Of a stretch of 64,000 bases of DNA, positions 18,032-20,297 are shown piece after piece; position 1 is the stretch's first letter; each line of letters opens with the position of its first letter. The notes under the pieces were generated by a model. That model saw only the letters and a list, made by a program, of their open reading frames with translations, was not told the DNA's origin and did no database searches. The translations under genes and the position numbers were made by a program. This stretch comes from Hydrogenobaculum sp. Y04AAS1 (GTDB lineage: Bacteria; Aquificota; Aquificia; Aquificales; Aquificaceae), in the NCBI RefSeq assembly GCF_000020785.1, contig NC_011126.1, forward strand, positions 1,240,001 to 1,304,000. Direction: 5' to 3'.

Positions 18032-19075
18032 ATGGCAGTAAAAGAAATTTTGGAAAAAATTAAAACTCTTGATTTGAAAGATTTAAACATTCAAGAGCCT
18101 ACAAGCATAGTCAAAGATTTAAAAGTGTCTGGAGATATTATAAATTTAAAGTTGGCTGTACCTGAATCTGTTAAAGAGCAGGTTAAAAATCGTTTTGAGA
18201 ACCTTATAAAAGAAACAAATCAAAACCTAAAGCCAAACATAGAATTTGTGGAAGGTGAGCCGAAGAAAAATCCCTTTGAACAGCCTGTTTTTAGCAAAAG
18301 AAGTATAAAGGGTGTTAAAAGGATTATCCCTGTAGCAAGCGGTAAAGGTGGTGTTGGTAAATCTACGGTGGCAACGAACTTGGCTATAGCTTTAAGCAAG
18401 CTAGGCAAAAGTGTCGGGCTTTTAGATGCAGATATTTATGGTCCTTCTGTACCTACTATGCTTGGTACCAAGGGGGCAAGGCTAACCGCAAACGTGTTTA
18501 ACAAAATAATACCCATAGAAAAATATGGCGTAAAGATGATATCTATGGGATTTTTGCTTCCTTCCGAAGACACCCCTGTAATATGGAGAGGTCCTATATT
18601 GATGCAGGCGTTAAATCAATTCTTGTTTGATGTAGATTGGGGACCGTTAGATTATCTTATACTTGATTTGCCTCCTGGAACTGGCGATGTCCAGCTTAGT
18701 CTTGCACAAAACACAGCTATAGACGGCGCTGTGGTGGTCACTACACCTCAGGATGTAGCTTTGGCGGATGTTAAAAAGGCGGTGTCTATGTTTAGAGAAG
18801 TAAATATACCTATACTTGGGGTTGTTGAAAATATGGCTTATTTTGTATGTCCAGAAACTGGGAAAGAGTACCGCATATTTGGAGAAAGCAAAGTGCCCCA
18901 ATTTGTGCAAACTTACAATCTAAAGCTTTTAGGCTCAATACCTATAGAGCCAGATGTTACAAAGTACGCAGATGAAGGAATGCCCATAGTGGAAGCCTCA
19001 CCGGAGTCTAGGACGGCTAAGGCTTTTATGGGAATAGCAAAAATAGTTGATTCTATATACCAAGGAGGTAAATAA
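18032..19075 (+). CDS. Mrp/ApbC (NBP35)-type P-loop ATPase, iron-sulfur carrier family
   Basis: Members carry or transfer Fe-S clusters. The deviant Walker A SGKGGVGKS is at 103-111, and the core has GFLLPSEDTPVIWRGP and DYLILDLPPGTGDV. The N-terminal region (1-85) aligns only loosely with the DUF59 domain. The cluster motif is unusual: it reads CPET (C273), whereas most members have CPxC, so the second cysteine is missing. The gene has a good ribosome site (CGGAGGTAAG) and is followed after 1 base by the NifS-like gene, suggesting joint work in sulfur or Fe-S handling. Confidence 0.88.
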   Translation: MAVKEILEKIKTLDLKDLNIQEPTSIVKDLKVSGDIINLKLAVPESVKEQVKNRFENLIKETNQNLKPNIEFVEGEPKKNPFEQPVFSKRSIKGVKRIIPVASGKGGVGKSTVATNLAIALSKLGKSVGLLDADIYGPSVPTMLGTKGARLTANVFNKIIPIEKYGVKMISMGFLLPSEDTPVIWRGPILMQALNQFLFDVDWGPLDYLILDLPPGTGDVQLSLAQNTAIDGAVVVTTPQDVALADVKKAVSMFREVNIPILGVVENMAYFVCPETGKEYRIFGESKVPQFVQTYNLKLLGSIPIEPDVTKYADEGMPIVEASPESRTAKAFMGIAKIVDSIYQGGK

Positions 19076-19076
19076 C

Positions 19077-20297
19077 ATGTTTTTCAAGAAGGCAGGGGAA
19101 AAGACGGTTTACTTGGATCACATAGCTACTACCCCGGTGGCTCAGGAAGTTTTAGAGGCAATGTTACCTTATTTTAGAGAGATCTTTGGAAATCCAACCT
19201 CTTTACACAGCTTTGGTCAGCAGGCTAAGAAAGCCATAAACCACGCAAGAGAGCAGATAGCTTATTTTATAAATGCTAAAAGCCCTGAAGAAATAGTTTT
19301 TACATCTGGTGGCATAGAGGCCAACAACTTAGCTATAAAAGGGATAGCAAAATCTTATGAAAAAAAGGGCAGACACATTATCACCACGCCGATAGAGCAT
19401 CATTCTATACTTCATCCTTGCAAAAATTTAGAGAAAGAAGGTTTTGAAGTTACATATCTTGAAGTGGATAAGTATGGATTTGTAAACCCAGAGCAGTTAG
19501 AAGAGGCTATAAGGCCAGATACCATATTAATTTCTATAGGGCATTCAAATAGAGAAATAGGTACTATTCAGGATATGAAAAATCTTGTTTCTATCGCAAA
19601 AGCTAAAAACCCTAAGGTTATATTTCATAGCGATATAGCTCCTTCTTGCGGTCATACTCCTATTGATGTGCAGGAGCTTGGTATAGATGCAGCCTCTTTT
19701 ACAGCCCATCTTATGTACGGACCAAAAGGTGTTGGTGCTCTTTGGACTAAAAAAGGCATTAAGGTAAAACCCCTTATAGAAGGAGGTGTTCAAGAGCGTG
19801 GTGTTAGAGCTGGTACTGAAAACGTGCCTGGTATAGTGGGCTTTGGAGCAGCCGCAGAGCTTGCTATGAAAGAGATGGACGATAGGGTAAAACGCCTTTC
19901 TTCCTACAGAGATAAAGTGAGAAAAGCCCTTGAAGAAAATCTTGATATGATAGAGTTTACTGGACACCCAACCCAAAGACTTCCTCATCATCTTTCCGTT
20001 ATAGTTCATCTTATAGAAGGTGAGGCTATGCTTCTTAGATTGGACCTACAAGGTATAGAAACAGCTTCAGGCTCTGCCTGTGTGTCTACAGCTTTAAAAC
20101 AATCCCACGTTATAGCAGCTATAGGTATACCAAAAGAAGTGTCAAACGGTTCTTTGGTGTTTAGTTTTGGAAGAGATAGTACCAATGAAGATATAGACTA
20201 TGTGGCGAGAGAGTTTCCTAAAGTCATCAAAAAGTTAAGGGAAATATCCCCTTTCAACAGGTCAAACTGGGATAACTACGTAAAGTCTAAAAAATAA
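19077..20297 (+). CDS. NifS/IscS-like protein lacking the catalytic PLP lysine
   Basis: This 406-residue class V aminotransferase fold protein resembles cysteine desulfurases along its length. The GNPTSLHSFG motif, H108/H109, D186, the RAGTEN motif (244-249) and the SGSAC loop with C335 are all present. At the Schiff-base position, canonical GHK is AHL: L212 (CTT at 19710-19712) replaces lysine just before YGPKGVGAL. DNAATT is DHIATT, and the AAQ of the cofactor pocket is IAP. Classical desulfurase activity is therefore unlikely. The start is ATG at 19077 with AAGGAGGT inside the mrp end; an upstream start at 19047 is not needed. Confidence 0.85.
   Translation: MFFKKAGEKTVYLDHIATTPVAQEVLEAMLPYFREIFGNPTSLHSFGQQAKKAINHAREQIAYFINAKSPEEIVFTSGGIEANNLAIKGIAKSYEKKGRHIITTPIEHHSILHPCKNLEKEGFEVTYLEVDKYGFVNPEQLEEAIRPDTILISIGHSNREIGTIQDMKNLVSIAKAKNPKVIFHSDIAPSCGHTPIDVQELGIDAASFTAHLMYGPKGVGALWTKKGIKVKPLIEGGVQERGVRAGTENVPGIVGFGAAAELAMKEMDDRVKRLSSYRDKVRKALEENLDMIEFTGHPTQRLPHHLSVIVHLIEGEAMLLRLDLQGIETASGSACVSTALKQSHVIAAIGIPKEVSNGSLVFSFGRDSTNEDIDYVAREFPKVIKKLREISPFNRSNWDNYVKSKK

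Follow-up and report, generated by a model that had tools for sequence, protein, structure and literature searches.

A NifS/IscS-like protein of Hydrogenobaculum that lacks the PLP lysine is probably an assembly partner of IscU

In the textbook account, bacterial Fe-S cluster biogenesis starts with a cysteine desulfurase. In E. coli IscS, Lys206 forms the internal aldimine with PLP, Gln183 hydrogen bonds to the phenolate oxygen of the cofactor, Arg354 binds the substrate carboxylate, and the K206A variant has no activity and still binds some PLP (PMC9978102). The precedent for the protein considered here is IscS of Archaeoglobus fulgidus, which is described as having no desulfurase activity and as contributing a Cys ligand to the IscU-bound cluster; the same source indicates that IscS1 of M. 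acetivorans is also without the lysine (PMC7585200). PDB entries for the A. fulgidus system comprise IscS-IscU complexes (4EB5/4EB7), IscS (4HVK) and a D199K mutant (4R5F). Two later papers that cite the MIS (minimal) Fe-S system of Garcia et al. 2022 term its MisS a cysteine desulfurase (PMC12442378, PMC11559095).

We analysed a window of 64,000 nucleotides of the Hydrogenobaculum sp. Y04AAS1 chromosome, in which a lysine-less NifS/IscS-like gene occupies positions 19077..20297 of the forward strand, immediately preceded by a ribosome-binding-like aaggaggt. The open reading frame is intact and encodes 406 aa, as first reported. The protein is a class V aminotransferase of fold type I (Pfam Aminotran_5, PF00266, 4e-83). 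It misses the NCBIfam equivalog models for NifS (482.6 vs a cut-off of 530.75) and IscS (403.8 vs 643.2), and the only NCBIfam model that it passes is the broad subfamily model NF002806 (335 vs 304). An AlphaFold2 model made with 17 homologs as input has a pLDDT of 87.9, and in Foldseek it matches the A. fulgidus IscS-IscU entry 4eb5 (TMq 0.90) and IscS/NFS1 structures, including E. coli IscS and human NFS1 complexes (TMq 0.88-0.91).

Active-site residues were assigned by alignment with E. coli IscS, and column states were scored over 50 Aquificaceae and 30 Hydrogenothermaceae sequences, family names that we presume for the two genome groups. Leu212 (codon CTT, 19710..19712; this and the following codons are on the forward strand) falls on the PLP Schiff-base lysine, Lys206, in agreement with the preliminary description, which had proposed this replacement and a look at orthologs in the same column. 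The residue is Leu in 50/50 Aquificaceae and Tyr in 30/30 Hydrogenothermaceae, and none of the 80 orthologs carries Lys. The preliminary description had also noted further pocket changes (DHIATT, DIAP), and its residue claims are borne out. Ile80 (19314..19316) replaces Thr76 and is Ile in 80/80, and Pro189 (19641..19643) replaces Gln183 and is Pro or Ala in 80/80. Arg159 (19551..19553) stands at Asn155 of the active-site pocket (Arg in 80/80), Val361 (20157..20159) at Arg354 (Val in all 79 readable sequences) and Thr209 at Ser203. The equivalents of Lys206, Gln183 and Arg354 are all gone, rather than one residue, so the damage extends to the cofactor chemistry as well as to the binding of substrate. 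Three functional positions are invariant in the alignment: the catalytic His108 (19398..19400; E. coli His104), Asp186 (19632..19634; Asp180) and the mobile-loop cysteine, Cys335 (20079..20081; Cys328). H211 (His205) and T247 (Thr243) are also kept in the window protein. The original list of retained residues (H108/H109, D186, C335) thus holds, with the correction that the catalytic His is H108 and not H109. The evidence favours the earlier proposal that the fold persists and the PLP chemistry has gone, the loss of activity being read from sequence.

The gene is real, conserved and functional. Against three close orthologs its dN/dS is 0.035, 0.030 and 0.075, and selection on it is purifying. 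A congener (G030) that seemed to be without the gene was rejected as a true absence, its contig ending within mrp at an assembly gap. Three other genomes (G097, G102, G107), which have matches to neither mrp nor nifS, look like assembly gaps as well.

Directly upstream lies an mrp/apbC-type P-loop ATPase gene (18032..19075, forward strand; Pfam ParA/NUBPL, 1.7e-103) with a deviant Walker A motif, KGGVGKS. It ends at 19075, and the nifS-like gene follows directly, as originally described. This arrangement, on the same strand, recurs in 49/50 Aquificaceae (the exception is G101) and 30/30 Hydrogenothermaceae, or 79/80. The neighbour had been called an Mrp-type Fe-S ATPase, and the ATPase assignment stands; the canonical CxxC site reads Cys-Pro-Glu-Thr (CPET, 18848..18859, forward strand), with the second Cys missing. 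That Cys is absent from every Aquificales Mrp compared, and L074/L159 lack the first as well. CxxC is the cluster-binding motif of Mrp/ApbC (PMC8593673), and with its second Cys absent, Fe-S binding by the neighbouring Mrp is not to be assumed. Judging from these residues, cluster binding by Aquificales Mrp, if any, must differ from that of canonical Mrp/ApbC. The neighbour is probably a carrier or an ATPase partner.

Linkage to iscU differs between the two families. In Hydrogenothermaceae, iscU as a rule belongs to the operon of the nifS-like gene: in 22/30 it comes after that gene in the same orientation, within 330 bp in 14 and at about 2.1 kb in 8. In Aquificaceae, including the window genome, it is at a separate locus outside the mrp-nifS operon. 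There it heads an operon of iscU, a ThiI-like gene with an NFACT-R domain, TusA, a small unknown protein and Nfu. The operon of iscU, ThiI-like thiouridylase, TusA and Nfu occurs in both families (L169 5207-7539 in G000; L061 7560-9852) and suggests a joint sulfur route for tRNA thiolation and Fe-S clusters. Near the iscU operon we also noted a protein of 120 aa that matches NifU_N weakly and in part (G000:C1:356465-356626) and is found in other Aquificales too.

Of 61 genomes sampled from the phylum, the 47 that belong to Aquificaceae or Hydrogenothermaceae all encode IscU, and none of the 14 from the other two families does. For SufB/D the pattern is exactly inverted, with 0/47 in the former and presence in the other 14. 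The two families therefore rest on IscU, and the presence of the lysine-less NifS/IscS follows IscU phylum-wide. The lysine-bearing paralogs of both families (L086-L091, L093, L139-L155) adjoin neither mrp nor iscU.

A search of the PDB with the window protein returned seven 406-aa chains. Chain A of 9WFY is identical over 405 aa to L012, the ortholog in G046, a genome that we take to be Aquifex aeolicus, and chain D has exactly the sequence of IscU from that genome, the wild-type A. aeolicus IscU. The two chains are presumably in contact, given their common entry. Mutants of the same ortholog occupy 9WFE, 9WFB, 9WF8, 9WEW, 9WER and 9WEP. As judged from alignments, they step towards canonical residues, with L212K and R159N, then V361R, P189Q, I80T and I16A, and then G154M, A188V and T209S, a series which suggests that the depositors regarded the wild type as deficient. 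Our literature search found no paper describing the 9W* structures. The entries are missing from a Foldseek library ending 8 April 2026 and are thus probably later than that date. The A. aeolicus ortholog is 79% identical to the window protein and shares Leu212, R159, P189, I80 and V361. Unlike the window organism, A. aeolicus has a second, lysine-bearing NifS (L091).

So, what does a NifS/IscS protein do without its lysine? We favour, with a probability of roughly 0.75, a role as a PLP-less assembly partner of IscU that acts through Cys335, with sulfur supplied from elsewhere. This reading draws on the loss of the whole PLP and substrate set, purifying selection, the mrp and iscU neighbours and the presence of ortholog and IscU in 9WFY; the location of Aquificaceae iscU outside the mrp-nifS operon counts against it. 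The IscS-fold dimer would not release sulfur from cysteine and would retain docking on the scaffold IscU. By analogy with the Archaeoglobus IscS-IscU complex, the flexible Cys335 loop would reach the IscU cluster site and help to assemble or retain the [2Fe-2S] cluster as it forms, with Cys335 as a putative ligand. Mrp and Nfu may act as downstream carriers. We infer from the residues lost that there is no PLP-dependent activity in vivo. PLP could still be present without catalysis, as in E. coli K206A. Of the sulfur sources, sulfide would be the simplest, with a persulfide carrier as another candidate. In E. coli, loss of iscS can be rescued by H2S and loss of iscU cannot, which indicates that IscU can be fed by sulfide alone (PMC13015791), and M. 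maripaludis uses sulfide (PMC12442378, PMC8593673). The preliminary description had suggested a new role as a scaffold or partner subunit. Linkage and 9WFY favour the partnership with IscU, and the Archaeoglobus precedent means that the role is not new in kind.

The main alternative to sulfide is that TusA or some other persulfide carrier loads Cys335. Here Cys335 would receive sulfane sulfur from TusA, a rhodanese or polysulfide of sulfur oxidation and pass it to IscU. The IscU-partner role is common to this persulfide relay and to the favoured reading, and the difference is in what Cys335 does. We consider the relay possible and hold it tentatively. In its favour, iscU of both families shares an operon with the ThiI-like thiouridylase, TusA and Nfu, and Cys335 and H108 are invariant. 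Against it, sulfur in E. coli flows from IscS to TusA and not in reverse, the donor in Aquificales is only putative, and the A. fulgidus case is interpreted as a ligand role.

Could the protein still be a PLP enzyme that has kept some desulfurase activity? The cofactor might bind with no Schiff-base lysine at all, or a different lysine, such as Lys217, might take over. The pocket residues H108, D186, H211 and T247 are kept, E. coli K206A retains some PLP (PMC9978102), and both the PDB depositors and NCBI use the family name cysteine desulfurase. But the Gln183 and Arg354 equivalents are gone too, K206A is inactive (PMC9978102), the PDB mutants step back to canonical residues as if the wild type were deficient, and Lys217 belongs to the YGPKG motif that canonical enzymes have as well, and we regard residual activity as improbable. 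A regulator or Mrp-specific subunit, acting outside cluster assembly on IscU, would fit the mrp link (79/80), which is tighter than that to iscU. We think it equally doubtful, given that the lysine-less protein tracks IscU over the phylum, that iscU lies downstream in one family and that 9WFY combines the A. aeolicus ortholog with IscU. That Leu212 is a sequencing error or the gene a decaying pseudogene, for which we found no supporting point, is ruled out by one fixed state per family over 80 sequences from two families, intact frames and dN/dS of 0.03-0.08.

If the lysine-less protein partners IscU, is there a separate desulfurase? The window genome was searched as a single contig of 1,559,514 bases. 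A PF00266 search gave four class-V-like matches including the window gene, and no other NifS, IscS or SufS was found among them; the other three, which we read as AGXT-, AspAT- and DegT-like, were rejected as backup SufS/IscS. A lysine-bearing query recovered a canonical paralog in 2/29 sampled Aquificaceae (A. aeolicus and G028) and in most Hydrogenothermaceae. In a PF00266 search of 31 Aquificaceae, strong second matches, scored by the PF00266 match alone, occur also in G061 and G066. Most sampled Aquificaceae thus appear, on gene content, to have no backup enzyme of known families. They may have a sulfur-releasing enzyme of another, new type.

In some Aquificaceae, a nif cluster encodes a further, divergent NifS-like protein in which Tyr, Phe or Ser stands in for the lysine (loop NSPC/SSPC); its gene lies between AOR-like and NifV-like genes and near nifB and nifI genes (L085 2157-3353 in G086; L092 5647-6768 in G013; L094 in G031). 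By its residues, this nitrogenase-linked NifS may be PLP-less as well. We put at about even odds the broader proposal that no cysteine desulfurase takes part in making any Fe-S cluster of most Aquificaceae, which are partly oxygen-respiring, not even the clusters of nitrogenase in those that have it. Their only IscS, like the NifS of the nif cluster, would then be a PLP-free scaffolding protein, with sulfide or sulfane sulfur feeding IscU directly.

Lysine-less homologs are not confined to these families. We scanned about 85,000 species with a degenerate DNA pattern for Asn, His, Asp or Tyr at the lysine, which left lysine-bearing forms outside. The scan yielded about 31 further lysine-less homologs of the group, which carry Asn or His. 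These come from Zixibacteria, Deltaproteobacteria, Nitrospirae, Actinomycetota, one Myxococcales and one Euryarchaeota MAG. In most of them the Gln and Arg are gone as well, in most the gene is directly followed by iscU, and their genomes also carry lysine-bearing paralogs. Three pattern matches (L119, L123, L128) were rejected as chance. The scan also found two distant Planctomycetes homologs (L113, L117), in which His occupies the lysine position and Asp that of the catalytic Cys, so neither key residue remains.

With the active-site columns left out of the alignment, the tree places the non-lysine forms to one side, together with three relatives that have the lysine and a link to iscU and are already without Gln183 (support 88, not starred). 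A. fulgidus IscS is on that side, beside one of the three. A single clade of all non-Lys rows is not rejected (p-AU 0.23). The tree fits one loss of the lysine or several, and lysine-bearing relatives in this clade are under-sampled because the search pattern had excluded them.

This kind of protein is already known from the Archaeoglobus precedent, and the Aquifex ortholog has already been crystallised. What seems new is that the lysine-less form is fixed order-wide, that most Aquificaceae have no known desulfurase as a backup, and that forms with Asn or His adjoin iscU in several other phyla; to these we add the linkage evidence and the range of parallel cases. In two entire families of heat-loving bacteria, the form that lacks the PLP lysine has become fixed, as the probable partner of the only IscU/SUF-type scaffold detected. 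If this is confirmed, IscS would be needed beyond sulfur release, for docking, ligand donation or control of IscU, and the two jobs could be separated for study. The case also cautions that 'cysteine desulfurase', as assigned automatically, is probably a wrong name in many genomes of several phyla.

E. coli IscS and human NFS1 share with the window protein the fold, the Cys loop and the pocket His and Asp, but they have the PLP lysine, the Gln and the substrate Arg and are active enzymes. MisS resembles the present case in forming an IscS-IscU pair as a minimal system. A. fulgidus IscS, 42-43% identical to the window protein in structural alignment, has Asp for the Lys, Ala for Gln183 and Leu for Arg354, keeps the Cys and has IscU as its partner. 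It differs in having Asn at H205, in keeping N155 and in being archaeal. The window protein shows the same traits, with another residue for the Lys, no equivalent of Gln183 or Arg354 and the Cys in place, and the IscU partnership is seen on its relatives, in the downstream iscU of 22/30 Hydrogenothermaceae and in the A. aeolicus ortholog deposited together with IscU in 9WFY.
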